Below are positions 4,295-29,804 of a DNA stretch of 35,839 nt, in pieces. The notes beneath the pieces are model-generated. The model searched no databases. It was given only the letters and a program-made list of their open reading frames with translations, and had not been told where the DNA came from. Every line of letters begins with the position of its first letter. The stretch's first letter is position 1. This DNA is from a virus: IMG/VR virus record IMGVR_UViG_3300025570_000048, positions 1-35,839 of that record; one strand, given 5' to 3'. A program made the position numbers and the translations under genes.

Positions 4295-5539
4295 ATGGGT
4301 CGCACGTACGTGATCGGGAAGATCGGCAAGTCTATAAAATTTAAGCCTAGCACGTGGGGTGCTATCGGCGGAGATAATGAAGCACCCACACTATATCTTA
4401 AGTTAGCTGAACTTAATCCTGATGATACTTTTATCATGATAGGCAAAAGCGATCTTTATAAGATGCGTGGCTTGCCCACAAATCTTCATGATGCCTGGGC
4501 ACATTACACGAAAGGTGAATCTGATGCCATAGCGTTTATAACTAATCATCTGAAGAATACTAAGGTTGATGCTGGAATTATGGTAGCTGGTCCAACTGGC
4601 GACGTAAACTTTCAAGAAAGGATATACACTCTATCTTCGATTAAAGCAGGTAAACCACAACTAGCCAAAACTCTGTTTATGCACGAGAATTACAGCGGTC
4701 CTATTTATGATTATCTTAATGATAGCATGATACCTTGGATAATGATTAACAATGATCCGCGGTATTTAAAGCTTGGCCGAGATATGTTTAATATGCCAAA
4801 AGAAATACTTTCACAATACGATTCAGCTAAATTGTATCGTCACATATCTTCATATGAAGACCAAACTCTGTTAGTCGATCATCGAGTACAATATAAGTAT
4901 GCTGGTGTAGAAAAAGTCTTTCTTATTAATAAAGAATTGGTTAATATCGAAAAGACTAAGAAGTTTATGGTAGTTCTTAATGAAGGAAGTAATGGTGTTA
5001 GTTCGCGCTATAACAAGTTAAAAGAATATGTACTTGACCACGTTGAGGACGTTGATATTTATGGCAAATGGGATGAAGACACTGTAAAAGGCGATAAGCG
5101 CTTTAAAGGGTCGATTAAGTTTGAGGAACTGCAGCAGATGTTACCTGAGGTCAAATATTCCTTTATGATATCTATTCGAGACGGTTGGGTTACAATGAAA
5201 GTTTGGGAATTGATTAGCAATGGTATTATACCGTTCTTGCATCCAAATTATGACGACCAACACCATATTGCAGTACCCGAGTTTTTGAGACTTAGTAAAC
5301 CTGAAGAGTTACACGAGCGCATTGAGCAACTTGAAAACGACCCTGTCTTATATAATAAGATATTACAGGAATGCCAATATCTTATTACACCAGATGATAC
5401 AAGCGGCAAAGTATTATGCGATAAGATTACTAGTACAATAAATAACTATCGAAGCTCTACTACAGGAACCAAATCTTATGATGAAGTTCTTCAAGAAATA
5501 GCCGATGATAGTAATGATTTAACGCACTTCTTTGGATGA
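4295..5539 (+). CDS. Glycosyltransferase resembling T4 DNA beta-glucosyltransferase
   Basis: 414 residues, longer than T4 Bgt (351). The C-terminal half lines up by eye with T4 beta-glucosyltransferase: a strand plus SSRYNKLKEYV, then RFKGSI before the nucleotide-sugar site, then WVTMKVWELI followed by an acidic stretch ending DDQHHI, against FITLRVWETM and DTKHRI in T4. The Glu of the VWE motif (Glu305), which contacts UDP in Bgt, is conserved; the preceding Arg is Lys302. This suggests a GT-B enzyme adding a sugar to hydroxymethylcytosine in DNA. The donor may not be UDP-glucose, given the adjacent nucleotidyltransferase-kinase. The alternative is a glycosyltransferase acting on another target. 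It has its own promoter, and its stop overlaps the methyltransferase-like gene (ATGA). Confidence 0.65.
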   Translation: MGRTYVIGKIGKSIKFKPSTWGAIGGDNEAPTLYLKLAELNPDDTFIMIGKSDLYKMRGLPTNLHDAWAHYTKGESDAIAFITNHLKNTKVDAGIMVAGPTGDVNFQERIYTLSSIKAGKPQLAKTLFMHENYSGPIYDYLNDSMIPWIMINNDPRYLKLGRDMFNMPKEILSQYDSAKLYRHISSYEDQTLLVDHRVQYKYAGVEKVFLINKELVNIEKTKKFMVVLNEGSNGVSSRYNKLKEYVLDHVEDVDIYGKWDEDTVKGDKRFKGSIKFEELQQMLPEVKYSFMISIRDGWVTMKVWELISNGIIPFLHPNYDDQHHIAVPEFLRLSKPEELHERIEQLENDPVLYNKILQECQYLITPDDTSGKVLCDKITSTINNYRSSTTGTKSYDEVLQEIADDSNDLTHFFG

Positions 5540-6771
5540 TTAATAAAATGAAAAATGATTATAGTTGGGCCCCTCACATACCGCTTATTGGCGGCCTCCC
5601 ACTTGGCGCAGAAGCAGCACTAGGTAAAGCACCTAAATTTGTATCAAGTCTTGATGGGTTTTGGGCTAATGATAGTCTTTATATGAACCATCAGAACGAA
5701 ACGCTGTCTCGTGGAATAGACTACCGACCTTTAGACCCAGGCGAACGCAGTTTTGTTGAAAAGGTTAACATTGTTGTATCAACACCACCATGCGCAGGTT
5801 TATCACAATTGAATACTGGTAAAGCTAACTCTGCAGCAAAAGGTGCTGATGCCGAAAAGAATCAGTTTATGTACATCGCGGCTGAACAGGCAATGAAGTG
5901 TTATGATGCCGATGTAATCGTTGGCGAGAATGCTCCTGCGCTATATACAAATAAAGGAAAGCCAGTTGCGGATAAGCTTTTACAAATTGCACGTGATAAT
6001 GGGTATTCTTTCTCATTGTATAAAACAACTACCTCTTTACATGGTATTCCTCAGAATCGCGACCGTACGTTCTACACATTTTGGAAAGGCGATAAAGCAC
6101 CAATTCAATCATGGTTTAACGAATCACGTAAAAACTTCCCTGATTACTTGAAAGAAGTAACCAATGAAATGTCTCACCAAAGCGACATTATCAATGATAA
6201 AATCGGTACTGGCGAATCGTATTATAACTTCATTCAGTATAAGAACCCTGGCGAAAATCCTCGTGATATTGTGATTGCGAATAATTGCTCAACTGCATTC
6301 AATTATGTTAGGCGCGGTGGCTTCTTACAGGAAGCGATTGACTACTTTGAAGCGATTGATGATACAAAAGGCTTGCATTTAGCAACACATGCTAAAATGA
6401 AATTCTCTAAAGGCTTAGGCATTTGGGATGGTTCAACTCACGTATTCAATGAATGTATGAATGCATGTATCAGTCGTAACATGAATGATACAATTCATCC
6501 AGTGCATGACCGTTCAATGACTATTCGCGAAGCATTACATATGATGGGCTTTCCGCATAACTTCAGTCTCCCTGGTGGAAAACGTAGTGTACCGTTTATT
6601 GCTCAAAACGTTCCGGTATGTACTGCAGCGTCAATGGTCGGTGAAGCAGTTAAGTTTTTAAATGGCGAATTGGAATTATCTGATAGTGATTTTGTTAAAC
6701 AAAACAATCATCATCAACGAATAGATGCAGGCAATATTGCAACAAACACATTAGAACAATTCATTGCGTAA
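5536..6771 (+). CDS. DNA cytosine-C5 methyltransferase family protein
   Basis: 411 residues with C5-methyltransferase motifs in order: a variant motif I/II region (IGGLPLGAEAALG, then SLDGFWANDS), motif IV STPPCAGLSQ with the nucleophile Cys86, motif VI GENAPAL (Glu131-Asn132), motif VIII PQNRDRTFY, motif IX TIREALHMMGFP and a motif X-like QNVPVCTAASMVGEAV. Motif I lacks the usual DLFAGxGG form, so SAM binding may be altered. It could methylate phage DNA against restriction, or act as a modified member of the family within this modification block. The start at 5536 overlaps the previous stop; an in-frame ATG at 5548 is an alternative start. Confidence 0.8.
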   Translation: MINKMKNDYSWAPHIPLIGGLPLGAEAALGKAPKFVSSLDGFWANDSLYMNHQNETLSRGIDYRPLDPGERSFVEKVNIVVSTPPCAGLSQLNTGKANSAAKGADAEKNQFMYIAAEQAMKCYDADVIVGENAPALYTNKGKPVADKLLQIARDNGYSFSLYKTTTSLHGIPQNRDRTFYTFWKGDKAPIQSWFNESRKNFPDYLKEVTNEMSHQSDIINDKIGTGESYYNFIQYKNPGENPRDIVIANNCSTAFNYVRRGGFLQEAIDYFEAIDDTKGLHLATHAKMKFSKGLGIWDGSTHVFNECMNACISRNMNDTIHPVHDRSMTIREALHMMGFPHNFSLPGGKRSVPFIAQNVPVCTAASMVGEAVKFLNGELELSDSDFVKQNNHHQRIDAGNIATNTLEQFIA

Positions 6772-13998: not shown

Positions 13999-14421
13999 AT
14001 GTCTAAATACGTTAAAAACACAATCATCGCTAATACTGATTTCTCTAATACTGACTTATCAAATTCTACATACTTAAATTGCTCATTCGTTAACTGCAAT
14101 TTCACAAATGCTATCCTTGACAATTCTTCTTTTGAAAACTCATCGTTCATTAATACTAATTTTATAAATGCCTCAATTAAAAACTGCAATTTCACAAATG
14201 CTAATTTAGCCGGCCTCTATTTATCTGAATGCCTAAATACTACAAATTGTAATTTCACAAACGCTAATTTAGCTGCAACCGTTTTTGCATTCTTGCTTGA
14301 TCTTGCTGACTGTAATTTCACAAATGCTAATCTTACCAATACCGACTTTCAACAAATTCCATTAAATAAAAACATATTTGATAATACTGCATCATTTGAT
14401 AAATATCAAACAGCGGCCTAG
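13999..14421 (+). CDS. Pentapeptide-repeat protein
   Basis: 140 residues made mostly of pentapeptide repeats of the A-[DN]-[LF]-x-x type, here with an Asn-rich version (NCNFTNANL occurs repeatedly, from about residue 5 to 118). Such proteins fold as a right-handed quadrilateral beta-helix; some (Qnr, MfpA) mimic DNA and bind gyrase, others have unknown roles. Asn replaces most Asp, so the surface is less acidic than in MfpA and DNA mimicry is not assured. The helix is interrupted twice (LAGLYLSECLN and ATVFAFLLDLAD). It has its own early-type promoter. The stop codon lies within the loop of a terminator-like hairpin. Confidence 0.85.
   Translation: MSKYVKNTIIANTDFSNTDLSNSTYLNCSFVNCNFTNAILDNSSFENSSFINTNFINASIKNCNFTNANLAGLYLSECLNTTNCNFTNANLAATVFAFLLDLADCNFTNANLTNTDFQQIPLNKNIFDNTASFDKYQTAA
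14095..14328 (+). repeat. Four near-identical 18-base coding repeats
   Basis: The unit TGCAATTTCACAAATGCT occurs at 14095, 14185, 14248 and 14311 (the last two with TGT, and one with AAC for AAT), spaced 90, 63 and 63 bases, all in frame and encoding C-N-F-T-N-A of the pentapeptide protein. Nucleotide identity above what the protein needs suggests recent internal duplication. Confidence 0.85.
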
Positions 14422-14434: not shown

Positions 14435-14442
14435 TATAAATA
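14435..14442 (+). promoter_or_regulatory. T4-type late promoter
   Basis: TATAAATA, exact match to the T4 late (gp55-dependent) promoter core, 33 bases before the ATG at 14475. It would begin the late transcript of the packaged-protein block. Confidence 0.65.
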
Positions 14443-14474: not shown

Positions 14475-15851
14475 ATGGCTTACAATTTTAGACCAAAGAA
14501 TGTTAATGAGATTCTTTCAAAAAATAAAAAGAATGGCTTCGTTGCTGCGAAAATATACGAAGCCATTCTCAAAAAATACGATGCGATAATCGTGCTCGAC
14601 CCAAGTTCGACGTTTAATTTAATAAAAATACCTCGAGGAGTTGGCGACAGCACTACAATAACCGCAGTTAAACAATTCCTAAAAACTGAAAAAATTGACA
14701 TTGGTGACTTAAAACTAGAATTTGGCGATGGCTCAGGTCGTGCTACTGGTACTGATGCAATCACAACAGCTAAACAAGAAAACGTAACCCGTCTTTATTG
14801 TCAAACATATATGAATACTAACGGTAAATTTCCGTCTAACGCCGAAACTAAAGAAATATACTCTGATGTAAATGATGAATGGTTTCGCACATTTGAAGCT
14901 CAAGCAATATCAATTTGTAAATGGCTTGGCTCGAATGGTTATATCTTCTCAAGAGATGAAGGTATTATGCCTTATCTTGAAAATGTTGCAAAGAAATGCG
15001 GAGTCACTACTAAAGATTCTTGGAATCCTGCTGATATATATGCGGTTAAGAAAAACTCACAAGATACAATTCTTAAGGATTTTGCTGCAATAGGTGAACG
15101 CAAAATGGATAAAGCTGCAAAGCTTGATGCGCTTAATTCTTATATGCGTTCAAAAATAGCGACTAAAGAACTAGTCGGCATTTCTCTTAAGAAGCTATTA
15201 AAAGGTAAGGTTAAAACAGTTGAACTCACCAATGCTAAAAGGAAAGAACCGCTTAGTGATATTGAGATACTTCCATCAAGTATCAAACTCAACTTAGATA
15301 TTAGTGCTAAGAACGAATTTGTCACAGGTGATTTCTCAATGAAAATTAAAGCAGAAGGTAAAATTGTTGCGGTGCAAGTCCGTGCTTTTGCTGGCGGACC
15401 ACGTGAATCTACTCAAATGGATATGGGTGGTGTAGGTGCTGCAGCAAAGCTTGGTAAAGTTTCAGCTAACGAAGCAATAGAGCCATTTATTAGAAAACAC
15501 GGACTCCAAAGACGTATGGGTACGCATTTACCAAAAGTCGGCAAATGGACTGAGAAGGATATAGTTAAATATATTGCCGAACAAAAAAGTTTAAAGTCAG
15601 TTAAAATTGGCGGAGTATCAATCGACTGGGGTAAGAGTGATTGGGGTACAGTTTTGCGTGACGCAATAGAATATGAAAAAGACATATCAAGAACAGCTTC
15701 ACAGTTAAGCGCTAAATTGCAATGCTTCCAATGGGTTACGATATTCGACACGATTCAACGTAAAGGAAAGCTTCAAGAGTTTTTATCAGTGCTTTACTTT
15801 GGTGCAAAGAAACAATACGATACGGCTGGACCGTTTTTAAAGGTAGCATAA
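14475..15851 (+). CDS. Conserved-looking phage protein of unknown function
   Basis: 458 residues; start at ATG 14475 (an in-frame TTG six bases upstream is less likely), with AGGCGAAG upstream. Mixed alpha/beta with no membrane segment. The segment WNPADIYAVKK (near residue 180) followed about 50 residues later by LVGISLKKLL resembles the Asp and x-Lys spacing of PD-(D/E)xK nucleases, and I have the impression this pair recurs in T4-like marine phage proteins. No assignment is safe. It heads the late operon and, unlike the five genes after the overlap at 15851, lacks a capsid-targeting N-terminus. Confidence 0.7.
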   Translation: MAYNFRPKNVNEILSKNKKNGFVAAKIYEAILKKYDAIIVLDPSSTFNLIKIPRGVGDSTTITAVKQFLKTEKIDIGDLKLEFGDGSGRATGTDAITTAKQENVTRLYCQTYMNTNGKFPSNAETKEIYSDVNDEWFRTFEAQAISICKWLGSNGYIFSRDEGIMPYLENVAKKCGVTTKDSWNPADIYAVKKNSQDTILKDFAAIGERKMDKAAKLDALNSYMRSKIATKELVGISLKKLLKGKVKTVELTNAKRKEPLSDIEILPSSIKLNLDISAKNEFVTGDFSMKIKAEGKIVAVQVRAFAGGPRESTQMDMGGVGAAAKLGKVSANEAIEPFIRKHGLQRRMGTHLPKVGKWTEKDIVKYIAEQKSLKSVKIGGVSIDWGKSDWGTVLRDAIEYEKDISRTASQLSAKLQCFQWVTIFDTIQRKGKLQEFLSVLYFGAKKQYDTAGPFLKVA

Positions 15852-16747
15852 TGAAATCATTTAAGCGATATTTGACCGAGATAAAAGCCACTCAAAGGGT
15901 CGGGATTCAACATCTTGACAAATTAACACCCACCAAGTTTCTCCAATTAATGAAAGTCTTTAAAGATGATTTCAATGGTGTGTTGCCTAGTAAGCAATTG
16001 CAGGTAACAGAGAAACTTGATGGTTCTTCAATACGTTTAGGAATGAATGGCAATAACGAATTCTTTATCGAGTCATCATATTCAGGTCCAGTGTATAAAG
16101 CCGGTGACTATACTGATTATGTAATTTCAAGAGGGTATGAAGCTAATGAAGTTTCAAAGAACTTTGAGAATTTACTTGATGTATTGAAAAAGAATTCTAA
16201 GCTGCAAGCAGTATTAAAGAAACATAACAATGGCGACGGCATCAAAATTATCGGTGAAATGTTTTATAATCCAATGGGTAAAGAAGTATCGAAAGATAAG
16301 ATACGATTCATCTATATTGATTATGATAAGTCTAAGTTAGCTGAATTGTTAACGGTCGTGCCTTTTAGCATCGAAGGCGATGTTGATAAGAAAGCGTTAA
16401 TTGATGATTTAGTAAAGATTTCAAATAGTAAGATTAGATTTGACAAAATAAAGTCAATGAATATTCCTGACATCGATTTGAACTTTGGTGTTGGTTCAAT
16501 TGCCGAACTATTAAAGAATTATGATAAAGCACTTGCAATATTACAATCAAGAAAGCATGCTGACCGTGAAGAGAAGGCTATCATAAAAGGTTTAATTGAA
16601 AAGGCACAAAGCGATGTCAGAACAACCATTTTACAATATATAAACAAAGGTAAGTATGGCGAAGAGTTCGAGGGAATCGTACTTGATATTCTTGGCAGTA
16701 AGTTAAAAGTAACTAGCGACGTATTCAGAAAAAGGTTTAAGAAATGA
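15851..16747 (+). CDS. ATP-dependent DNA/RNA ligase-like nucleotidyltransferase with capsid-targeting N-terminus
   Basis: 298 residues. Residues 1-10 (MKSFKRYLTE) match the T4 head-targeting peptide with an L-x-E prohead-protease site. The remainder has covalent nucleotidyltransferase motifs: motif I EKLDGSS with Lys55 as the AMP acceptor, a motif III/IIIa-like IIGEMFYN (Glu136), motif IV EFEGIVLD (Glu274-Gly) and motif V-like SKLKV (Lys284/Lys286). No OB-fold domain is obvious after motif V, so it resembles the small RNA-ligase-like or minimal ligase forms. It could seal nicks in RNA or DNA early after entry. The start overlaps the previous stop (TAATG), and the stop overlaps the Pol-beta-type gene (ATGA). 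Confidence 0.75.
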   Translation: MKSFKRYLTEIKATQRVGIQHLDKLTPTKFLQLMKVFKDDFNGVLPSKQLQVTEKLDGSSIRLGMNGNNEFFIESSYSGPVYKAGDYTDYVISRGYEANEVSKNFENLLDVLKKNSKLQAVLKKHNNGDGIKIIGEMFYNPMGKEVSKDKIRFIYIDYDKSKLAELLTVVPFSIEGDVDKKALIDDLVKISNSKIRFDKIKSMNIPDIDLNFGVGSIAELLKNYDKALAILQSRKHADREEKAIIKGLIEKAQSDVRTTILQYINKGKYGEEFEGIVLDILGSKLKVTSDVFRKRFKK

Positions 16748-17637
16748 TATCATTTAAAAAGTTTATAGCAGAAGGCGGCAATGCCGTTAAGGGTGTTACA
16801 CGTATCAATCAAGAAAACGTTGCTGGCACAATGAATAACATTTATAAAGAGATACTGCCAAAGTTAAAGTTAACGCAGAAGCAAACTGCAAGTTTAGGCT
16901 CAACTGGTAAAAAGAAAGCAGGTGGCTCAAGCGGTGATGTTGATTTAGCGTTAGACCTTGGAGCTATCGTTAAAAGCGATAAAGCAGTTAACACTCTTGA
17001 TGATGTCTTTGATAAGATAGTTAATGTAGCAAAATCATCTGGGTATGACTTCCGTGATATGAGGTCTATGGGATTAGTTTCTATATCATTCCCTATTAAA
17101 AACGACGACGGTAAACAAGAAGGAGAAACTGTTCAACTAGACTTGATGCCAACTGAGAATTTAGACTATTCTTCGTGGGCATATTATTCTCCAGCTGAAT
17201 GGGAAAGCCAATGGAAAGGTTTATACCGAAACGAATTATTATATGCAATTGCTAGATTCATGGATTACAAGACCGCAGAGAAAGCAATGGATAAAGAAGG
17301 TAAGGAAGTCGATGCTTCATGGGAACGTAATTTCTTTGACTTATCGAAAGGTTTGCTTCGCGGTAAACAATCAAGGATGGGTAAAAAGGGATTAGTCAAG
17401 AGTTCTAAAACTTTAGAGAAGTGGCTATTAACAATGGATAAGGAAGAAATTGTTACTATGTTGTTCGGCCCTAAGTATAAGTCAACCATGATACTTACTT
17501 GGGAAGACGCGTTTAAAGCTGTCACTGACCCTCGGTTTGTTTACAAAAAGTCCGTTAAAAACATACTGCAAATGACTAAAGACGGCATAATTAAAAAAGG
17601 ATATACCGTTCCACCAGAGTTAGATGCTATAGTATAA
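16744..17637 (+). CDS. Pol-beta-superfamily nucleotidyltransferase with capsid-targeting N-terminus
   Basis: 297 residues. It begins MISFKKFIAEGG, a head-targeting peptide with I-A-E before Gly, the classic T4 gp21 cleavage form. The catalytic core follows: LGST (Gly52-Ser53), then SGDVDLAL with Asp65 and Asp67, and the third carboxylate in VQLDLMP (Asp133). This is the minimal nucleotidyltransferase signature shared by CCA-adding, MNT, OAS and cGAS-like enzymes. The C-terminal half is helical and basic. Which nucleotide it adds, and to what, cannot be read. It is coupled to the ligase-like gene, so the pair might act on the same nucleic acid, for example RNA end repair. Confidence 0.75.
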   Translation: MISFKKFIAEGGNAVKGVTRINQENVAGTMNNIYKEILPKLKLTQKQTASLGSTGKKKAGGSSGDVDLALDLGAIVKSDKAVNTLDDVFDKIVNVAKSSGYDFRDMRSMGLVSISFPIKNDDGKQEGETVQLDLMPTENLDYSSWAYYSPAEWESQWKGLYRNELLYAIARFMDYKTAEKAMDKEGKEVDASWERNFFDLSKGLLRGKQSRMGKKGLVKSSKTLEKWLLTMDKEEIVTMLFGPKYKSTMILTWEDAFKAVTDPRFVYKKSVKNILQMTKDGIIKKGYTVPPELDAIV

Positions 17638-17652
17638 ACCCAATGTTAAGTT

Positions 17653-17696
17653 CCTATCTATTATAAATAAATCATCAGAAACTTATAATAGATGGG
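17653..17696 (+). promoter_or_regulatory. Hairpin covering a Shine-Dalgarno, with late promoter in it
   Basis: Left arm CCTATCTATTATAA (17653-17666) pairs with TTATAATAGATGGG (17683-17696), 14 bp with one G-T wobble and a 16-base loop; outer bases CAATG (17641) and CATTG (17698) can also pair. The right arm holds the GGGA that serves the ATG at 17707. A late promoter (17662-17669) overlaps the left arm. Confidence 0.7.
17662..17669 (+). promoter_or_regulatory. T4-type late promoter
   Basis: TATAAATA, exact. Transcripts starting some 10-12 bases downstream would lack the left arm of the surrounding hairpin, leaving the ribosome-binding site of the 17707 gene free. Confidence 0.65.
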
Positions 17697-17706
17697 ACAT
17701 TGCCTA

Positions 17707-18282
17707 ATGAAAACCTTTAAAGAAACGTTGGTCGAAAAGAAAGTAACTATAGACGTTGATCATACCGGCGAAGATATTAAAACCGCTGAAAGAAAATACA
17801 AGATTAAAATTAAGCATGATGGAGAAACTCAAGCTTATATCACTGGCGAGAAGAAAGACGTATTAAGGTTTCTTAAAGGTCCAGAATACAGTATGGACAC
17901 AAGCGATATTAAAGAATTTTTTCCAGAGTTATATGAATCGTTGGACGAAGCGTTGGATTTAAAACAACGCATGAAAGCAAAGCAAACCTTCCGTAAGAAC
18001 AAAGCAAAGATCGCTATTGGCAAAAAACGCGCCGAAAAGAAGATCGCATCTCCAGAAAAATTAAAAGCTCGTGCCCGTAAAGGCGCGCGTAAAGCAGTTG
18101 AGAAAATGATTTTAAAGAACAAGTCCAAAGAAGACTTGTCATTTTCTCAACGTCAAGCACTCGAAAAACGTGTTGATGCTAAAAAAGGCGCTATCGACCG
18201 TATAGCGAAAAAGATCCTGCCGGCTGTAAAGAAAGCTGAATTAGAAAAGAAACGTGGCGGGACAAAGAAAGATGAGAAATAA
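17707..18282 (+). CDS. Lys/Arg-rich conserved phage protein with capsid-targeting N-terminus
   Basis: 191 residues from ATG 17707; an in-frame ATG at 17692 is rejected because the targeting peptide MKTFKETLVE and the GGGA Shine-Dalgarno fix the later start. Residues 1-85 form a small mixed domain. Residues 86-191 are extremely basic (RKNKAKIAIGKKRAEKK, ARARKGARKAVEK, KKGAIDRIAKKI) and helical. This basic tail pattern recurs in conserved T4-like marine phage proteins that I recall but cannot name. A DNA-binding internal head protein is the best guess. It is preceded by the hairpin/late-promoter switch. Its end overlaps the giant gene by 11 bases. Confidence 0.75.
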   Translation: MKTFKETLVEKKVTIDVDHTGEDIKTAERKYKIKIKHDGETQAYITGEKKDVLRFLKGPEYSMDTSDIKEFFPELYESLDEALDLKQRMKAKQTFRKNKAKIAIGKKRAEKKIASPEKLKARARKGARKAVEKMILKNKSKEDLSFSQRQALEKRVDAKKGAIDRIAKKILPAVKKAELEKKRGGTKKDEK

Positions 18283-21200
18283 AACTTATAAGGAATTGCA
18301 CGAAAATTTATTATATACTTCAGCTGATAAAGCAGATTTTTTAGACGACGACAATGCTATAATTAATGCATTCATGATTAACTTCGTGGGTGTTGCTTTG
18401 GCGTTTAATTTATCGCTAAATCAAGCAAAGGTATTACGTTATATAAAAGCCGATAAGAAAGTTCGCCTTGCTAACATAACAGACGAAAACAATGATATGT
18501 CGCTTATTATAAAAATAATGAGTGACAAGAAAATGTTTAAGAACAATACAGTCACTAACGAAATTACTCGTTTCCTTGCTAAACTAAAGACTGGTTCAAT
18601 TGATAATATCGATGAAGGTATTCTTCTTGCTTGGATCAATCAAGTAAAAGATTCTAATATGATTGGTATGCAGAAATCATTGAAGAAAGCATTAGCTACA
18701 ATAGTTGATGATGGTGATCTTACTTTAGGTTTGAAGCATATTCGTTGGTCAGCAATGCGGAATAAGAAGTCTTCTGGTGAGTTTCTTGACCTAACACGCG
18801 GTATGCGGTTTAAGCAAGTCAATAAAACTATTACACCTGCTACTGCTACTGCTACTAATCAACCTCAAACCGACTCTCCAGATTTAAGTACAGTACAAGC
18901 ACCTGTCGTATCTCAAGCACCAACTGCGCCAGAGATATTATCGTTTGAAGACGCAATGGCTGCTAAGGATAATAAAGCGCTTCTAAAGAGCGCTGCTGAG
19001 AAACCAGTAACTTGGTTTCGCGACTTTACGAACTGGGTAATGTTTGGACCTGATAAAAAAGGCGCACCTAAAGCCGTAAATATGACTCAGATGCGCGACA
19101 CACTATCAACTTTAGGTGATGCCTTTGATTTAATACCAGAAGCAACAATTACAAAATGGATGGATGCAATGGTATCTAAAGCCATTTCCAAAAAGGTTGG
19201 TCTATCCCTTTATAACGAATGGTTTATTCATTTAATAAATATCATAGGCGGCACAAAGAGTGTTGATAAACTAGATTTAGCTGGCGCAATCAAAAGGGCT
19301 GGTATATACGATATAATGGGCACCCAATCTCTAAGTGAATTACCATCATTCAACGCATTAAGAAAGCTTGAATCATTAGTCGGATTGAGGTATAAGCCTT
19401 CTGATTATATTAGAGAAAATTTACCTTCACTTAAAACTGTAGGAATTGGGGCAGAAAAGACCAAAAACCTAATAAGGGTTTCTTTAACATTGGCTTATAG
19501 AGAAACTGACGTAGTATTAGATATGATAAGTGATGCCAAAGAAAACCCATTCATTAATGCAGCCAGTGGTTTAATATCGTTTAACGTTGAAAATGAAAAG
19601 GAATACGACACTGACTGGTTTAGGTCAGTTGCTAAATTTGATGTAATAGTAAAAGATGACGGAACCAGTTCAGCAGTCGATCGGTTAATAAACGCGTTTA
19701 CTACTAGCCAAGGAACTGGCAGGTTCGGATTAGAACAGAAATTACAGGCAGTAATAAGTTCATACTCTAACGAAGAGTTTAAAGCAGCCGTTACATCATT
19801 GAATAATATTTCAGCAGCATATGATTACGAAAAGTTTTATACCGTGCTTAAGGCGTTTTATTATAACGTGCTTCAACGACATCCACTTGCAAGCAGTCCT
19901 GACTTCATGTATATGATATTCAAGATGCATGAACTGATGGTTTTAAAAGACTATAATAGAGCTAAGCATGATTTAATTTCACAAATGGTACTTAGTCAAT
20001 ACTCAAGTCTCAGACAAATTGGTAATAAAATAATTAGAGATGAGTATGCTGATCCTAAGTTGATGCTAACAATCTTTGCGGACACGAACACATATGGCAA
20101 TAAATTACCAAAAGTAGTCCAAGGTGCAAGAAGTTTAGCCGAAGCGTGGAAAGGTTTCTTTAATAACAATAAAGAAATATCAATCTTATTATTTAAAGAA
20201 TATGTCAATCATAATAATGTGCCAATAAAAAATATGACTCAGTGGGCTGACAAATTAGATGTATCCAGTTTTGCTAATAATAATTTTAAAAGCGGTATTA
20301 ATATTTCAAATATCGATGCAAAAAGCGCACAAGATTTATTGGCAATTGGTCTTTGGAAAAACCTACTTGGTACCACTGGTGGCGGATCATTTGAAAGCAA
20401 GTTTCCTGAACTCGTCGGGCAGGCATCGGACTTTATATTAAAGGGCGTTATTAATACTATAATGTCGTTTAACTCAGTTAAATCTGATAAACAATTTTTT
20501 CTTAAAGCTGAGAGACGATTAAACGCGGTTTTACAATTATCATCATATCGTGGTTTGATCGTGCCTTCTCAAATAAAGCGTCTTTCAGGATACGACCAAA
20601 GTTTGTACACAGAAGCGCATGATTTGTTATCAAAAACATCTTTGGCATCTTTAACTGAGGTAAATGCTGATGTGGATGATGCTAAGGCCACTTTAAGATC
20701 ATCCACAATCGATCTTAAACCTATTTTTATAACACAACAACAATACATCTTCAATGATAGCGATTACAAATCTTACTTAAAAGATTTACTTCAAGGCGCG
20801 CATCCAAAAATAAATGTAGCTGCTCAAATACTTGATGCACGGCCAGTAGGTTCTGGTACGTTATCGGAGTTTCCAACTTTCGATATAGTTAAAGATGACC
20901 CCGAATTACAAAATTTGGTTGTCAATTCGTTTATAGCAAATGGCAAATATAAAGGATCCGGCATTAAGCTGGGTGAAATTCGCGATTTAGATAAAATCAC
21001 AAAATTAAACTTAGACGCTAATCAGTCAGCGGCCTTGGAACTACAGGTATATAGCATAATTGAAAAGGCCGTACGTAACCAAGAAACCTTTTATATGGCT
21101 TCAATTGCGGAACACTTTGCAGCGGACGATGCTTCACCTATGTTTAAAGACGAGAAAGTTATAGCGTCAGCGTTTAGCGATATGATAGCTCGTTTAGATG

Positions 21201-22468
21201 GTATGCCAAATACCGTAGCATACCGTGAAGCTCGTGGAGAAATTATTCCTAGCTTCTCTAAGGTATTAATGCAATCAGGTGGTGAAGTTAAATCTATATA
21301 TGATACCATTAATAATAAATACAAGAAAGAAATTGCGGCCGCAATGGTACAAGAACGTGCAATGGAGATACTTGTTGAAGGGAAGATTGAAAACGAAAAC
21401 TCGCCAATTAAACCATTAGTATCAGTAACGCCCGAGCGTTTAACAGAAATATTAAAGTTTAACCATATTGACATCCCTGGCGATAAAGTTAAAGTTTCGG
21501 ATGTACGTACTTATGATGAGCTGATTACGTACACAACTGATGCTGTTAAGGGAGTTTCGTTAAATGACATGAGTGTTGAAGAAGTTGAAATGGATTCGGC
21601 ACAACTTGAGCGTTTAACTGCGGATATGCACAGAGCAAAACGTAATGGCGTACATGGTAAAGCTGGTATGAAAATACGTCGAGTATTTAAAGCCGAATTG
21701 CCATTGCAAGTACGAAGTCAAGAAGCATGGATAGATGATGATCCTACTCAAGAAATAATTAATCCAATGTACCATGGCACAGGCTCAATTGCTGCTTCGA
21801 TTATATTACGAAATGGCTTTGCTGTTATCAAATCAGGCGATGCTTCAGTTGTTGGACGTATGCTAGGCGACGGTGTATATGGAGCAATTCATATTGACAA
21901 ATCCCAACAGTATATCGGCGATGCCGGCTATAGTAGAAATGCGGGTATGATCGGTTACATATTTGCGATGAACGCTGCATTGGGCAAGAGGGGTAAAGAT
22001 TATGATGTAGCTGGAGTTGAAGGTGGTAATGCTAAGTTTAGCGTTGCCTCTCCTGAATGGTGTGTATTTACACCTAACGCACAATTTAAAATTGAAACGG
22101 TATATGAAGTCGAGATTGCTGATGATGCTGCTATGCAAGAAATACTTAAAAATAATAAAGAAGAAGTTAATGAAGCTGTATCGTTTTCAAACTTTATTAC
22201 CGAAGCTAAAACGACTTCAAATAAACAATTGAGATTCACGTTCGTAAATGGGCGTGTACCAATTGGTAAAAGTAAGGTTGTTGAGTTCGAAGATTTCAAA
22301 GGAAATAAAAACGTTTATATCGAAAAGTCAGCTTACGGTCCAGTTGTCGTAATGGATAACACTAAGAATGAAGGTTCTTGGATGTACAAATCACCTACGG
22401 ATTTCCAATCAAATGATCCTAATAAATATAAACAATATCTATCGTTACTTAAAAAGAAGTTGAAATAA
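18272..22468 (+). CDS. Giant protein with PARP-like ADP-ribosyltransferase domain and capsid-targeting N-terminus
   Basis: 1398 residues from ATG 18272; a GTG 18 bases upstream is less likely. The N-terminus MRNKTYKELHE resembles the head-targeting peptide, with L-H-E as cleavage site. A long helical, low-similarity middle (about 30-1150) contains a Pro/Thr/Ala-rich linker near residue 190-225. The C-terminal region carries an ADP-ribosyltransferase of the H-Y-E (PARP) type: MYHGTG (His1168), GDGVYGAIHIDKSQQYIG (Tyr1203) and PEWCVFTPN (Glu1262). It would transfer ADP-ribose from NAD+ to an unknown target. At 1303-1313 a second targeting-like motif (VSFSNFITEAK) precedes an 87-residue tail. 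T4 Alt is a precedent for a packaged ADP-ribosyltransferase, though of the R-S-E class and much shorter. Confidence 0.75.
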   Translation: MRNKTYKELHENLLYTSADKADFLDDDNAIINAFMINFVGVALAFNLSLNQAKVLRYIKADKKVRLANITDENNDMSLIIKIMSDKKMFKNNTVTNEITRFLAKLKTGSIDNIDEGILLAWINQVKDSNMIGMQKSLKKALATIVDDGDLTLGLKHIRWSAMRNKKSSGEFLDLTRGMRFKQVNKTITPATATATNQPQTDSPDLSTVQAPVVSQAPTAPEILSFEDAMAAKDNKALLKSAAEKPVTWFRDFTNWVMFGPDKKGAPKAVNMTQMRDTLSTLGDAFDLIPEATITKWMDAMVSKAISKKVGLSLYNEWFIHLINIIGGTKSVDKLDLAGAIKRAGIYDIMGTQSLSELPSFNALRKLESLVGLRYKPSDYIRENLPSLKTVGIGAEKTKNLIRVSLTLAYRETDVVLDMISDAKENPFINAASGLISFNVENEKEYDTDWFRSVAKFDVIVKDDGTSSAVDRLINAFTTSQGTGRFGLEQKLQAVISSYSNEEFKAAVTSLNNISAAYDYEKFYTVLKAFYYNVLQRHPLASSPDFMYMIFKMHELMVLKDYNRAKHDLISQMVLSQYSSLRQIGNKIIRDEYADPKLMLTIFADTNTYGNKLPKVVQGARSLAEAWKGFFNNNKEISILLFKEYVNHNNVPIKNMTQWADKLDVSSFANNNFKSGINISNIDAKSAQDLLAIGLWKNLLGTTGGGSFESKFPELVGQASDFILKGVINTIMSFNSVKSDKQFFLKAERRLNAVLQLSSYRGLIVPSQIKRLSGYDQSLYTEAHDLLSKTSLASLTEVNADVDDAKATLRSSTIDLKPIFITQQQYIFNDSDYKSYLKDLLQGAHPKINVAAQILDARPVGSGTLSEFPTFDIVKDDPELQNLVVNSFIANGKYKGSGIKLGEIRDLDKITKLNLDANQSAALELQVYSIIEKAVRNQETFYMASIAEHFAADDASPMFKDEKVIASAFSDMIARLDGMPNTVAYREARGEIIPSFSKVLMQSGGEVKSIYDTINNKYKKEIAAAMVQERAMEILVEGKIENENSPIKPLVSVTPERLTEILKFNHIDIPGDKVKVSDVRTYDELITYTTDAVKGVSLNDMSVEEVEMDSAQLERLTADMHRAKRNGVHGKAGMKIRRVFKAELPLQVRSQEAWIDDDPTQEIINPMYHGTGSIAASIILRNGFAVIKSGDASVVGRMLGDGVYGAIHIDKSQQYIGDAGYSRNAGMIGYIFAMNAALGKRGKDYDVAGVEGGNAKFSVASPEWCVFTPNAQFKIETVYEVEIADDAAMQEILKNNKEEVNEAVSFSNFITEAKTTSNKQLRFTFVNGRVPIGKSKVVEFEDFKGNKNVYIEKSAYGPVVVMDNTKNEGSWMYKSPTDFQSNDPNKYKQYLSLLKKKLK
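22169..22210 (+). other. Internal capsid-targeting-like motif with possible protease site
   Basis: Encodes NEAVSFSNFITEAK within the giant protein (motif residues 1303-1313). SFSNFITE-A copies the start of neighbouring proteins (MKSFSQFINE) and ends in I-T-E before Ala, a good T4 gp21-type cleavage site that would free the last 87 residues. Confidence 0.5.
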
Positions 22469-22469
22469 T

Positions 22470-23291
22470 ATGAAGTCTTTCTCACAGTTTATAAATGAAG
22501 ATAAGAATCATGCGGTGGTTGTGTGGGGTCGTTTGAACCCACCGACTATCGGTCACTTAAAACTTCTAGATAAAGGAGCCGCAGCAGCAAAAGGTTCGTC
22601 ATATTTCATATACGTTTCGCAGTCAACCGATGCCAAAAAGAATCCATTAGAATATGGACAAAAGATAAAATGGATTCGTAAAATGTTTCCAACTCATGCG
22701 CGTTCAGTTGTCATGGATAAATCAGTTAAAACTATATTTGATGTATTGACAAAAGTATATGATAGCGGTTTCACGACGTTAACTTTGATAGCAGGATCGG
22801 ACCGTGTTACCGAATATGAAACTATAGCAAACAAGTATAATGGTGTTAAAGCAAGACATGGTTTTTATAACTTCGAAGGTGGAGTTAAGGTTGTGTCAGC
22901 AGGTGAACGTGATCCTGATGCCGAAGGTGCAACTGGTATGTCTGCTTCTAAAATGCGAGCAGCAGTTGTCGCTAATGATTATCAAATCTTTCAAAAAGGT
23001 CTACCTAAAAACTTCTCTGATAGTACTCAATTGTTTAACGATATGCGTAAAGCGATGGGTCTTAAAGAATCGACATCTTTCCGCGAGCATCTTCAATTGA
23101 AATCAGTATCAGAAGTCCGCGAATTATTCGTTAAAGGCGAGATATTTAATAAAGGCGATACTGTAGTAATAAACGAATCAAATGAAGTTTGTACAGTATC
23201 AGTTAAAGGAACCAATTATGTTATTGTTAAGAAAGGCGACGGATCAAAGACGAGGTGCTGGCTAACAGACATTTCGCCAATAGGAGAATAA
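22470..23291 (+). CDS. NMNAT/cytidylyltransferase-like protein with capsid-targeting N-terminus
   Basis: 273 residues. It begins MKSFSQFINE, then enters a nucleotidylyltransferase fold: VVWGRLNPPTIGHLKLL contains T-x-G-H (His29) in place of H-x-G-H, and GMSASKMR (156-163) matches the ISSTxxR motif that binds the NTP phosphates. The middle LIAGSDRV is also typical. Related phage proteins are NadM/NMNAT-like and often labelled cytidylyltransferase. The C-terminal 70 residues (from KESTSFREHLQLKSV) form a small extra domain with another SFREHL-like segment. If it is an NMNAT it would make NAD+, the substrate of the ADP-ribosyltransferase encoded just upstream. Confidence 0.75.
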   Translation: MKSFSQFINEDKNHAVVVWGRLNPPTIGHLKLLDKGAAAAKGSSYFIYVSQSTDAKKNPLEYGQKIKWIRKMFPTHARSVVMDKSVKTIFDVLTKVYDSGFTTLTLIAGSDRVTEYETIANKYNGVKARHGFYNFEGGVKVVSAGERDPDAEGATGMSASKMRAAVVANDYQIFQKGLPKNFSDSTQLFNDMRKAMGLKESTSFREHLQLKSVSEVRELFVKGEIFNKGDTVVINESNEVCTVSVKGTNYVIVKKGDGSKTRCWLTDISPIGE

Positions 23292-26291: not shown

Positions 26292-27923
26292 ATGAGAGAT
26301 ATTTTAGTTACTAAACGCGACGGAACAAAAACTCCACTTGACATTAACAAAATACATGATGTAGTAGAATTTGCTTGTGCAGGCTTGACCGGTGTTGCAC
26401 CATCTGAAGTCGAAGTAAAAAGTCATATCCAATTCTCAAATGGTATTACTACTAGTGATATTCAAGAAACTCTAATCAAATCAGCGTCAGAACTAATCAG
26501 CGAAGAATCACCTAACTACCAGTACGTTGCAGGACGTTTAATTAATTTCCATTTACGGAAACTAGTCTACGGCCAATTCGATCCTCTAGACCTCATTGAG
26601 CATTATAAAAACAACGTTCTGTTAGGTTGGTACGATAAGAATCTTTATAACCAATATTCAAAAAATGATTGGGAATTTCTTAATTCAGTTATAAACCATA
26701 GTTTGGATTTCAACTTAACATATGCTGCTATGGAACAGTTTAGAGGCAAATATCTTGTACAGAATAGGGTAACGAAGGAAATATTTGAGACACCTCAGAT
26801 GCTTTATATGCTCGTATCAATGACATTGTTTGCTGATTATCCAGTAGAAACAAGAATATCGTATGTTAAGAAATATTATAACCATATATCGAAAGGCAAT
26901 ATCTCATTACCTACTCCGATACTTGCAGGTGTAAGAACTCCTGATAGACAATTTAGCTCATGTGTATTGATTGAAACTGAAGATAGTCTTAACTCAATTA
27001 GCGCAACCAATGCTGCTATTATTCGATATGTTAGTCAGAAAGCAGGTATCGGTATTGGCGGTGGTTCAATTAGAGCAACTGGTTCTCCTATTCGTAATGG
27101 CCAAGCATCACATACCGGTGTTATTCCTTTTTATAGAACATTTCAGAGTTCAGTAAAGTCATGTTCACAAGGCGGAGTTCGTGGCGGTGCTGCTACTTTA
27201 TATTATCCGGTATGGCATCTTGAAATTGAAGATCTTTTAGTATTAAAGAACAATAAAGGCGTTGAGTCAAATCGTTTACGTCAAATGGATTATGGCGTAC
27301 AGTTTAACAAATTAATGTATGAACGTTTAATAACTAATGGTAACATTACATTGTTTAGCCCAAGCGATGTTCCTGGGTTATATGATGCATTCTTTGCCGA
27401 TCAGGATAAGTTCAAAGAAATATACGAAAAGGCTGAACGTACTACTCATATACGAAAGATAACTGTTAAAGCACTTGACTTGTTTACTACCTATATTCAA
27501 GAACGTAAAGATACTGGTAGAATTTATCTACAGAATGTTGATAACGTAAATATACAAGGGTCGTTTAAACCTGAAGATGCACCAATCAAAATGTCTAATC
27601 TTTGCGTAACTGGCGACACTGAACTTGACATTATTGTAGATGGCATTTCCATGTTTAACGTGCCAATCATTGATGTTATAGGTTATGCTTGTAGAGCACG
27701 TGAAGTGAAGGTTAGTGCATATGATATTGAAACTAATACGTTTAAGTATAGCAAAGTCTCAAAAGGTGCGATGACTGGTCGGGACCGAGAGTTAATGGAA
27801 ATCGAAGATGACACAACAGGCAAAAAGGTAATATGCACGCCTGAACATCAAATATACACTAAGAACCGTGGATATGTTGAGGCTAGAAATTTAGTTGAAA
27901 CTGATGAACTTTTTATAGGATAA
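26292..27923 (+). CDS. nrdA: Ribonucleotide reductase class Ia large subunit, N-terminal part fused to N-half of a split intein
   Basis: 543 residues. Residues 1-437 are NrdA from the N-terminal ATP-cone-like segment (VTKRDGTKTPLDINKI) through ISLPTPILAGVRTP, FSSCVLI (first redox Cys), the active-site loop GIGIGGGSIRATGSPI and SGFK-equivalent regions, to KMSNL. At Cys438 the sequence changes to an intein: CVTGDTELDI (block A) and ICTPEHQIYT (block B, T-x-x-H) with NRGYVEARNLVETDEL, ending in a true stop at 27921. The extein breaks immediately before the Cys that carries the thiyl radical (Cys439 in E. coli), which is supplied by the C-terminal gene at 28713. Not a pseudogene: both halves and all junction residues are intact. 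Confidence 0.92.
   Translation: MRDILVTKRDGTKTPLDINKIHDVVEFACAGLTGVAPSEVEVKSHIQFSNGITTSDIQETLIKSASELISEESPNYQYVAGRLINFHLRKLVYGQFDPLDLIEHYKNNVLLGWYDKNLYNQYSKNDWEFLNSVINHSLDFNLTYAAMEQFRGKYLVQNRVTKEIFETPQMLYMLVSMTLFADYPVETRISYVKKYYNHISKGNISLPTPILAGVRTPDRQFSSCVLIETEDSLNSISATNAAIIRYVSQKAGIGIGGGSIRATGSPIRNGQASHTGVIPFYRTFQSSVKSCSQGGVRGGAATLYYPVWHLEIEDLLVLKNNKGVESNRLRQMDYGVQFNKLMYERLITNGNITLFSPSDVPGLYDAFFADQDKFKEIYEKAERTTHIRKITVKALDLFTTYIQERKDTGRIYLQNVDNVNIQGSFKPEDAPIKMSNLCVTGDTELDIIVDGISMFNVPIIDVIGYACRAREVKVSAYDIETNTFKYSKVSKGAMTGRDRELMEIEDDTTGKKVICTPEHQIYTKNRGYVEARNLVETDELFIG
27603..27920 (+). other. Split intein, N-terminal fragment
   Basis: 106 residues from Cys438 of the nrdA N-part. Block A starts with the nucleophile Cys and TGDTEL. 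Block B has C-T-P-E-H with the conserved His. The C-terminal blocks F and G are missing here and are found at 28713, so splicing must occur in trans. Confidence 0.92.
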
Positions 27924-27934
27924 ATTGCTAAAAA

Positions 27935-27991
27935 GGTAGGTAGAGAGATTTCAGTTTGTATAAATAAACTATAGAAATAACTCTACCTACC
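27935..27991 (+). promoter_or_regulatory. Hairpin before the GIY-YIG gene, with late promoter in its loop
   Basis: GGTAGGTAGAG (27935-27945) pairs perfectly with CTCTACCTACC (27981-27991). The 35-base loop contains TATAAATA (27959-27966) and an inner AGTTT/AAACT stem. The right arm ends 12 bases before the ATG at 28004, next to the GAGG Shine-Dalgarno (27995-27998), so the closed stem should hinder initiation on read-through RNA. Confidence 0.75.
27959..27966 (+). promoter_or_regulatory. T4-type late promoter in hairpin loop
   Basis: TATAAATA, exact, 38 bases before the GIY-YIG start. Late RNA would begin after the hairpin's left arm and escape the structure. Confidence 0.65.
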
Positions 27992-28003
27992 AATGAGGCA
28001 ATC

Positions 28004-28723
28004 ATGTTTATAGTTTACGAGCATAAGAACACTTTAAATAATAAAAAATATATCGGATACACGTCAAAGACAATGAACGAAAGATTACACAAACATTACA
28101 TTAACGCGATTTCAGGAATGGATAATCATTTCTATAAAGCGATACGTAAATATGGTTTGGAAGTCTTTGAGTCGAAAATATTAGAAACTGTTGCAACACA
28201 ACTTGAAGCAACTAATTTAGAAGTTAAACATATCGAACTTAACAATAGTTTTAAGGAAGGTTATAACATGACAAAAGGTGGGGACGGTGGTTATGTTGTT
28301 CCAGCCGAAAAACGTGATGATTGGATCAAAAAACTAACAGCATCCTCGACCAAAGAAAACAATGGTATGTGGAGTGGAATATCAGATGAAACCATATTAT
28401 CATATGCTAGAGAGTTCTTTTTAAGCGAGGGTCATTCTAGTGGAATGCAATCGTTTATTAATTATGGCGTAAAGAAATATTCCATACCAAAATCATATTC
28501 AAAAAATAGGTTCGGCGGCAAGACATTAAAACAGGCATATTGTGAAAAGTACAATGTTAACCCAACTGAACTAAAATATGTCAAATCTGCTGCTCACCGC
28601 GAAAAATTAAAAAACGCGAATATTGGTAAAAACTGGTATTCAAATGACAATTTAAAAACATCATACCAAGCGAACTCACTCCCGGGAAACGATTGGTATA
28701 AAGGAAGAAATTATGGGTATTAA
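28004..28723 (+). CDS. GIY-YIG homing endonuclease between the nrdA halves
   Basis: 239 residues. GIY-YIG domain at 1-90: FIVYEHKNTLNNKKYIGYTSKTMNERLHKH (the GIY position reads IVY, YIG intact, catalytic Arg in NERLHKH), with the Glu in the LEATNLEVKHIEL region and GYNMTKGG closing the domain. The C-terminal part contains SAAHREKLKNANIGKNWYSN, typical of the NUMOD-type DNA-binding modules of GIY-YIG homing enzymes. It is a free-standing gene placed exactly between the two split-intein halves and probably mobilises the intein into intein-free nrdA alleles. A hairpin and late promoter precede it. Its stop overlaps the start of the C-terminal nrdA gene by 11 bases. Confidence 0.88.
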   Translation: MFIVYEHKNTLNNKKYIGYTSKTMNERLHKHYINAISGMDNHFYKAIRKYGLEVFESKILETVATQLEATNLEVKHIELNNSFKEGYNMTKGGDGGYVVPAEKRDDWIKKLTASSTKENNGMWSGISDETILSYAREFFLSEGHSSGMQSFINYGVKKYSIPKSYSKNRFGGKTLKQAYCEKYNVNPTELKYVKSAAHREKLKNANIGKNWYSNDNLKTSYQANSLPGNDWYKGRNYGY

Positions 28724-28814
28724 AATAAGAACACTTGATTACACTGAAAACGTGTATGACATTACCGTTCCTGAAACTAGTAACTTTTTTGCTAATGGTA
28801 TACTAATACACAAT
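28713..28814 (+). other. Split intein, C-terminal fragment
   Basis: 34 residues ending in His-Asn before Cys, the normal C-terminal splice junction. The short length is standard for naturally split inteins. Confidence 0.92.
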
Positions 28815-29804
28815 TGCGCAGAAATTGATTTGCCGACAAAACCTCTTGATGATATTAATGATGAATCCGGTGAAATAGCATTGTGTACGTTATCAGCAAT
28901 TAATTGGGGTAACATTAGTGATCCTTCTGAGTTCGAAGAGATATGTGACTTGTCAGTTCGGGCTTTAGATTCATTACTTGATTATCAAGATTATCCAGTT
29001 AAAGCAGCATACATTGCAACTATGGGTCGTCGTCCACTTGGTGTTGGTATTAATAACTTAGCGTATTGGCTTGCTAAAAACGGTTATACTTATCAAGGCA
29101 TTACTGAAGAAGGATTGTCACATTTACATGAATGGCTTGAAGCATGGTCTTACTATTTGATTAAATCTTCTATCAATCTTGCTAAAGAAAAAGGGGCGTG
29201 TGAATGGTCACGTGAAACTAAGTATTCACAAGGTTTATTTCCAATTGACACTTATAAGAAAGATGTTGATTCATTAGTTGGTAATAACTTAAAAATGGAT
29301 TGGGCTGCATTACGTAATGAAGTTAATGAACATGGGATTCGTAATAGCACTCTTATGGCTATCATGCCTTCTGAAACTTCATCTCAAGTAATTAACTCGA
29401 CGAACGGTATTGAAGCGCCAAGAGCCTTAGTTTCAATCAAACAATCAAAAGATGGTATATTGGCACAAGTTGTTCCTGAGATCCGTAAGTTAAAGAATAA
29501 ATACGATTTATTATGGGATCAGAAATCGCCTGAAGGTTATTTAAAAATATGTGCGGTCATTCAGAAGTTTGTTGACCAAGGCATAAGTGTTAATACATCG
29601 TATAACCCTAAGCACTACGAAGATGGCAAAATGCCTTTAAAAACTCTGATTCGTGACTTATTAACTTTTTATAAATATGGAGGCAAACAGCTATATTATT
29701 TTAATACTTATGATGGTGCTGGCGAATTAACATACGAAGAAGCCAATGATAATCCTGTCAGTGAAGAATTGGATGAAGATGATTGCCCGAGTTGCAAATT
29801 GTGA
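28713..29804 (+). CDS. nrdA: C-half of split intein fused to ribonucleotide reductase class Ia large subunit, C-terminal part
   Basis: 363 residues, with AAGGAAG Shine-Dalgarno 7 bases upstream. Residues 1-34 are the C-intein: NVYDITVPETSNFFANG (block F) and ILIHN (block G, ending His33-Asn34). The C-extein begins with Cys35, both the +1 splicing nucleophile and the NrdA thiyl-radical Cys of the LCxEI motif (here CAEIDLPTKP). It continues with EIALCTLSAINW (second redox Cys), NSTLMAIMPSETSSQ, and the C-terminal redox pair CPSC. Trans-splicing with the 26292 product would give a 766-residue NrdA, close to the E. coli length of 761. Confidence 0.92.
   Translation: MGIKIRTLDYTENVYDITVPETSNFFANGILIHNCAEIDLPTKPLDDINDESGEIALCTLSAINWGNISDPSEFEEICDLSVRALDSLLDYQDYPVKAAYIATMGRRPLGVGINNLAYWLAKNGYTYQGITEEGLSHLHEWLEAWSYYLIKSSINLAKEKGACEWSRETKYSQGLFPIDTYKKDVDSLVGNNLKMDWAALRNEVNEHGIRNSTLMAIMPSETSSQVINSTNGIEAPRALVSIKQSKDGILAQVVPEIRKLKNKYDLLWDQKSPEGYLKICAVIQKFVDQGISVNTSYNPKHYEDGKMPLKTLIRDLLTFYKYGGKQLYYFNTYDGAGELTYEEANDNPVSEELDEDDCPSCKL

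Follow-up and report, generated by a model that had tools for sequence, protein, structure and literature searches.

In a marine T4-like virus, five consecutive genes encode proteins whose N-termini resemble the capsid-targeting sequence (CTS) of the T4 internal head proteins, which confirms the observation of an earlier note on this DNA. We conclude that a small enzyme set is probably packaged in the particle of this virus and may be delivered together with its DNA. The earlier interpretation of the five proteins as a packaged enzyme set with T4-type leaders is supported, with the limits given below. The analysed stretch of 35,839 nt (IMG/VR record IMGVR_UViG_3300025570_000048, hereafter the window) is contained in a 77.9-kb IMG/VR contig (G001) with 99.98% identity over the whole window.

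Leaders and late promoters of the gene unit

The open reading frames lie back-to-back with the starts MKSFKRYLTE, MISFKKFIAE, MKTFKETLVE, MRNKTYKELHE and MKSFSQFINE, as had been claimed (Table 1). The claimed similarity of these starts to the T4 decapeptide is exact in four cases, with an aromatic residue at position 4, I or L at position 8 and E at position 10. The pattern used for the search (^M..[FY]...[ILMVF].E) considers only these three positions. The leader of the ADP-ribosyltransferase (ART) fits as a variant that is longer by one residue (Y6, L9, E11) and ends in L-H-E. In T4, residues 4 and 7 of the CTS mediate targeting (Y4 and F7 in IPIII), whereas residues 8 and 10 determine processing (Mullaney and Black 1996, in PMC9026906), and the protease gp21 cuts after L/I-x-E (PMC9026906). 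Targeting position 4 is F in four of the five leaders; position 7 is Y in the ligase-like protein, F in the Pol-beta-type and NMNAT-like proteins and T in the basic protein; the ART lacks a counterpart of this position. A mechanical ORF call placed the start of the third gene at 17692 (MGHCL-MKTF). We set this start aside for 17707 because a relative (L006) likewise has MKTF at this point.

Based on the N-terminal composition of the genome itself, the pattern should occur by chance at a rate of 0.0016 per gene; internal methionines of related loci give a rate of 15/9,886. At such rates, four matches among five consecutive genes are expected about 4e-9 times per genome. When T4 was scanned with the same pattern (150 of 169 kb), the only gene-start matches were ipII and ipIII, the products of which begin with MKTYQEFIAE/A (a slash marks the known or predicted cut). 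Residues shared between leaders are often encoded by different codons (4 of 4 between the ligase-like and the NMNAT-like gene), and the leaders therefore match at the protein level.

Table 1. Features of the late unit (window coordinates; leaders, cuts and activities are predictions)
Feature	Position	Strand	Remark
T4-type late promoter TATAAATA	14435-14442	+	upstream of first transcription unit
First gene of unit, 458 aa, phrog_1462	14475-15851	+	unknown function; no leader here
Cargo 1, RNA/DNA-ligase-like enzyme, 298 aa	15851-16747	+	EKLDGSS motif; PF09414
Leader MKSFKRYLTE/I	15851-15880	+	start of ligase-like gene
Cargo 2, Pol-beta/lambda-type nucleotidyltransferase, 297 aa	16744-17637	+	conserved motif and model
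Leader MISFKKFIAE/G	16744-16773	+	start of Pol-beta gene
Second T4-type late promoter TATAAATA	17662-17669	+	precedes the genes of cargo 3, 4 and 5
Cargo 3, basic protein, 191 aa, phrog_23027	17707-18282	+	55 K+R vs 32 D+E
Leader MKTFKETLVE/K	17707-17736	+	start of basic gene
Cargo 4, protein with PARP-type ART domain, 1398 aa	18272-22468	+	H1168, Y1203, E1262 conserved
Leader MRNKTYKELHE/N, shifted variant	18272-18304	+	start of ART gene
Internal second leader-like site SFSNFITE/A	22181-22204	+	ART residues 1304-1311; alignment of 24 ARTs
ART C-terminal domain, 87 aa	22205-22465	+	freed if internal site is cut; among collected loci seen only in ART relatives
Cargo 5, NMNAT/cytidylyltransferase-like enzyme, 273 aa, phrog_395	22470-23291	+	PF01467 above cut-off
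Leader MKSFSQFINE/D	22470-22499	+	start of NMNAT-like gene

The earlier note had made its proposal depend on a gp21-like protease. Such an enzyme is encoded on the same contig: an S77 (gp21-type) protease gene (E 4e-42) lies about 45 kb upstream of the five genes, beside gp22- and gp23-type genes. The contig begins with a T4-type head cluster, which also contains small ORFs at the gp67 and gp68 positions. The scaffold protein at the gp22 position contains many [LI]xE sites, and the gp23 major capsid protein has a predicted cut of its own (MLSE/A). The two late promoters stand one before each half of the leader-gene unit. On the contig, TATAAATA occurs 15 times on the plus strand vs 2 times on the minus strand, and it is also found in the head cluster (contig 220, 1356 and 3872). 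The leaderless first gene of the unit has a weak homologue in locus L074 that does carry a leader, MEDFRQYLHE.

Several other features of the virus were recorded in passing. A sixth leader-like start, MKSFKQFKEE (MKSFKQFKEETK), stands behind a late promoter at contig 69504-70130 (locus L018); it has both targeting aromatics and lacks I/L at position 8. A pentapeptide-repeat-like protein (NTDFSNTDLSNSTYLNC...) is encoded just upstream of the unit (window 13999-14421). Nine near-identical copies of a 37-bp element, TTGATATAATAGATCTACAAATTGAGTTAAGGAAT, which resembles a repeated promoter and ribosome-site cassette, are located directly 5' of gene starts (window 12597, 13478 and 33597; contig 11793, 14337, 14580, 27439, 70192 and 72125). 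As read from the sequence, the large subunit of ribonucleotide reductase (window 26292-29804) is split across two ORFs, and a gene resembling GIY-YIG endonucleases stands in between. The first ORF ends and the second begins with an apparent intein half (CVTGDTEL... and ...FFANGILIHN); on this reading the gene is fractured, probably by a split intein. Finally, a protein with a PPCAG motif (window 5536-6771) resembles DNA cytosine methyltransferases, and DNA modification is possible.

The five predicted cargo proteins

Cargo 1 scores 31.4 bits against PF09414 (RNA_ligase, cut-off 27), and searches of viral_contigs and phages found relatives in the same virus only. Cargo 2 contains the conserved motif GS...D65xD67...D133. 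A model from a single sequence was poor (pLDDT 38); a model based on a four-sequence alignment reached a pLDDT of 77.8 and leaves the leader disordered. The 50 best PDB matches listed for this model are all Pol beta or lambda, with a best E of 1.7e-3 and low TM. By this model, cargo 2 matches a Pol X or Pol beta-type nucleotidyltransferase with borderline significance. Relatives of the Pol-beta and ligase-like genes are few or lacking. One Pol-beta relative (L144) reads MKQFNHFRETITE/GGNAV and would have the same mature start as cargo 2; another (L095) has no cleavage site.

Judged from its family, the basic protein is the weakest case for packaging. Most family members lack the processing Glu (extended motif in 5/56), and many have SFKDYLxVD starts. 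In T4, D at position 10 of the leader gives targeting without processing, and by this analogy the SFKDYLxVD-like starts might do the same. PDB sequence searches with single cargo proteins returned nothing useful.

The ART domain of cargo 4 is of the PARP type as judged from a family profile, which matches PDB PARP1 with E 6e-7, and from the conserved H-Y-E residues; its activity is predicted. With the one sequence alone, Pfam gives a score of 22, under the cut-off of 26.7. Most ART relatives that are complete at the N-terminus have the motif [LI]xE/N[ST]xY close to their start. Exceptions include the ART of Pseudomonas phage pf16, which has no clear leader; the ART of another cultured relative, Aeromonas phage Aeh1, has one.

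If the leader is an address label, it could also stand inside a protein, and the ART contains such a copy. The sequence SFSNFITE/A is located between the ART domain and the C-terminal domain. In an alignment of 24 ARTs from diverse phages, the F of this site is invariant, an aromatic residue or H follows at +3 in 22, I, L or V at +4 in 23, and the E is present in 22, while neighbouring columns are variable. Since this internal copy is conserved, the motif appears to act as protein and not as a start-site cassette. The aligned ARTs of L046 and L053 keep the C-terminal domain and have lost the Glu of the internal site; an initial reading that the ARTs of L046, L053 and L054 lack this domain was dropped because the alignment shows it to be present. 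We also dropped the sequence MLSFKEFLRE of L032 as the start of a separate gene for the C-terminal domain, as it begins at an internal Met of the same ORF.

For cargo 5 the earlier claim of an NMNAT-like enzyme holds at the level of the cytidylyltransferase-like superfamily, since membership in PF01467 is supported by sequence; NMN as the substrate is not supported beyond that level. A PDB profile search gave one weak match.

Conservation of the leader and association with virions

By scans with the ART and NMNAT families we collected 116 loci. In these loci, 92/1,962 gene starts (4.7%) carry the leader motif, vs 15/9,886 internal methionines (0.15%); the 92 matches are not phylogenetically independent. 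Position 7 took no part in the search pattern, yet it is a targeting residue in T4, and an address label should have an aromatic residue there. Consistent with this prediction, position 7 is aromatic or His in 84/92 motif carriers vs 286/1,870 (15%) of the other genes.

Once the leader is removed, the leader-bearing proteins form about 25 sequence clusters. In L006 the unit is kept, but without the ligase-like and Pol-beta genes; it encodes instead a DUF6267 enzyme with the leader MKSFKSFITE. Among NMNAT relatives the extended motif is found near the start in 53/73, vs 15/1,666 other genes; only 2/59 of these relatives could have been retrieved through the leader itself. Homologues of the NMNAT-like enzyme in jumbo phages have no leader and begin directly with the enzyme. 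The leader, which stands before varying cargo and is missing from these homologues, is therefore a separable module. An S77 protease is encoded in 14/14 ART-bearing records longer than 125 kb. Since the leaderless jumbo phages also encode an S77 protease, the protease alone is no predictor of the leader. Avoidance of internal [LI]xE in the cargo is slight (observed/expected 1.02 vs 1.20) and was not used as evidence, and a plasmid search with a hand-typed consensus gave no match.

If the leader directs packaging, relatives that bear it should be found in virions, and published mass spectrometry (MS) agrees with this expectation for S-SM1, S-CREM2 and S-SZBM1. NMNAT/cytidylyltransferase-like proteins have been reported in the virions of five cyanophages (S-SM1, S-CREM2, S-SZBM1, S-SCSM1 and S-CBWM1; PMC3037559, PMC10665884, PMC9146016, PMC9602691), and a leader is present in 3/3 of these nucleotidyltransferases whose starts were read (S-SM1, S-CREM2 and S-SZBM1). 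The citidylyltransferase T4-GC190, found by MS in S-SM1 virions (Sullivan et al. 2010), is encoded by a gene that starts with MKKFSAFLNE/A. The cytidylyltransferase of S-SZBM1 (MRFRQFIIE/A) was detected, and an adjacent leaderless DUF6267 protein is not in the accessible list.

The paper on S-CREM2 prints its virion list with coordinates, from which the gene starts could be read. Four MS-detected proteins have exact leaders: a SAM lyase (MKDFDSFLEE), an APH-like kinase (MKRFDAFLTE), the cytidylyltransferase (MKNFSSFLTE/A) and a hypothetical protein (MQTFSMFFSE). Among non-structural proteins the motif occurs in 4/15 detected vs 1/126 undetected proteins (p 4e-4); the association is weaker when all genes including those of the tail are counted (4/52 vs 1/166, p 0.012). 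Two further detected proteins were spotted post hoc and left out of these counts: one that starts with MKDLHSFLTE, and a Cas9-like nuclease (L156, 7704-10313, minus strand) with the leader-like sequence RFASFMAE/A at residues 18-25, for which a Pfam search gave no domain at E 0.01. The printed list contains no leaderless replication proteins.

The authors of these proteome papers suspected packaging of NMNAT-like proteins or kept co-purification open. The accessible cyanophage virion lists name no ART, Pol-X or ligase-like partners; a literature search found no virion data on the ART, Pol-beta and basic families, and the paper on pf16 contains no virion proteomics. In searches of open-licence papers, we found none that links the NMNAT-like virion proteins to a targeting leader. 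Phage fENko-Kae01 was discarded as a control: its homologue lacks a leader and carries no mark of MS detection, but the sample analysed was not purified virions.

A probable packaged enzyme set and its relation to known systems

The sequences directly establish the leaders, the protease gene, the late promoters and the conservation across the family, and published data establish the association of leader and virion in relatives. We consider it likely that all five proteins carry a T4-type CTS, are packaged, are cleaved by gp21 and are injected with the DNA; for the window's own proteins we infer packaging, cleavage and injection, as well as every enzymatic role. Late in infection the leader would dock each protein onto the scaffold core of the prohead via the aromatic residues 4 and 7, and the gp21 protease of the phage would then cut after [IL]-x-E, which would leave the mature enzyme free inside the head. 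These two steps are modelled on T4 genetics and on the conservation described above. The ART would also be cut at its second site, before the C-terminal domain. The freed enzymes would remain with the packaged DNA, enter the cell with it and act ahead of all phage gene expression. Takeover or anti-defence may be the role of the PARP-type ART and the basic protein, as with T4 Alt and the internal proteins (IPs). The Pol-X-type polymerase and the ligase could plausibly act on the ends of nucleic acids, either those of the incoming genome or those of its targets, and the NMNAT-like enzyme on NAD or a nucleotide.

The leaders might target these proteins to the prohead as core or assembly components, which would be left behind or inert instead of being injected as effectors. 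T4 IPIII does affect head assembly, and the charge of the basic protein resembles that of the basic IPs. However, four of the five proteins have folds or motifs of enzymes in which the catalytic residues are conserved, a SAM lyase and a kinase are among the S-CREM2 cargo, and proteins fused to the T4 CTS are delivered into cells, which makes such a role unlikely. It is less likely still that the leader addresses another place or partner, such as the portal, the baseplate or a host factor, and that co-purified abundant proteins account for the virion data. The authors of two proteome papers do point out that virion MS may pick up co-purified proteins, but in most carriers the site obeys the gp21 rule and agrees with the T4 CTS at each of the four functional positions, and the leaderless replication proteins are not in the printed S-CREM2 list. 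Least probable of all, the shared start could be a cassette for translation initiation or at the DNA level, which would have spread together with the genes and have no part in packaging: the N-terminal identity is short and covers the first codons, and the TTGATATAATAGATCTACAAATTGAGTTAAGGAAT cassette does exist elsewhere in this virus, but TTGATATAATAGATCTACAAATTGAGTTAAGGAAT does not precede the five leader genes, the shared residues are encoded by different codons, position 7 prefers aromatics, and a conserved copy sits within the ART, far from any start.

Beyond packaging and injection of the five proteins, we lean, with less assurance, toward a broader reading. The CTS would be a general, readable address label in T4-like phages, attached in exchangeable late units to some 20 or more unrelated cargo families, and ARTs with two labels would be cut into two packaged parts. 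The families named behind the leader are PARP-type ART, Pol-X, ligase-like, DUF6267, NMNAT-like, SAM lyase, kinase and Cas9-like nuclease. Since many cargo families would occupy these exchangeable units, the protein payload of uncultured phages should be predictable from sequence. Such a rule would name the proteins that an uncultured T4-like phage delivers. These would be active ahead of phage gene expression, at the time of the first attack by host defences, and the rule therefore points to candidate takeover or anti-defence enzymes, with the SAM lyase as one MS-detected cargo among them. The leader also offers a mechanism for a puzzle in the cyanophage papers, the recurrence of a metabolic nucleotidyltransferase in virions.

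In this system the mechanism is known and the cargo is new: it is the internal-protein system of T4 with other cargo, and packaging of one cargo family has already been reported. The earlier note knew of no described set of this composition, which does not hold for the NMNAT-like proteins reported in the five cyanophage virions. These share with cargo 5 the kind of enzyme, have been detected in virions and carry a leader in the three cases read; in contrast to our account, the accessible text of their papers mentions no targeting leader. T4 IPI-IPIII have the same ten-residue leader (aromatic residues at 4 and 7, I/L at 8, E at 10, gp21 cut) and exchangeable cargo (PMC9026906), but the T4 cargo consists of small basic proteins, whereas here it is mostly enzymes in one late unit. 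T4 Alt is reported to be cut at both termini, including by gp21 near the C-terminus (PMC9026906), and the ART of the window, which is likewise predicted to be packaged, has processing sites near both ends. Unlike Alt, which belongs to PF03496, it is of the PARP type (H-Y-E) and twice as long, lacks a PF03496 domain and shows no homology to Alt by BLASTP. Phage polyvalent and head-packaged effector proteins (PMC5512222) are also enzymes, presumed to be packaged and to be injected in conflicts with the host; they are multidomain polypeptides, whereas the virus described here would send separate proteins under a common leader.
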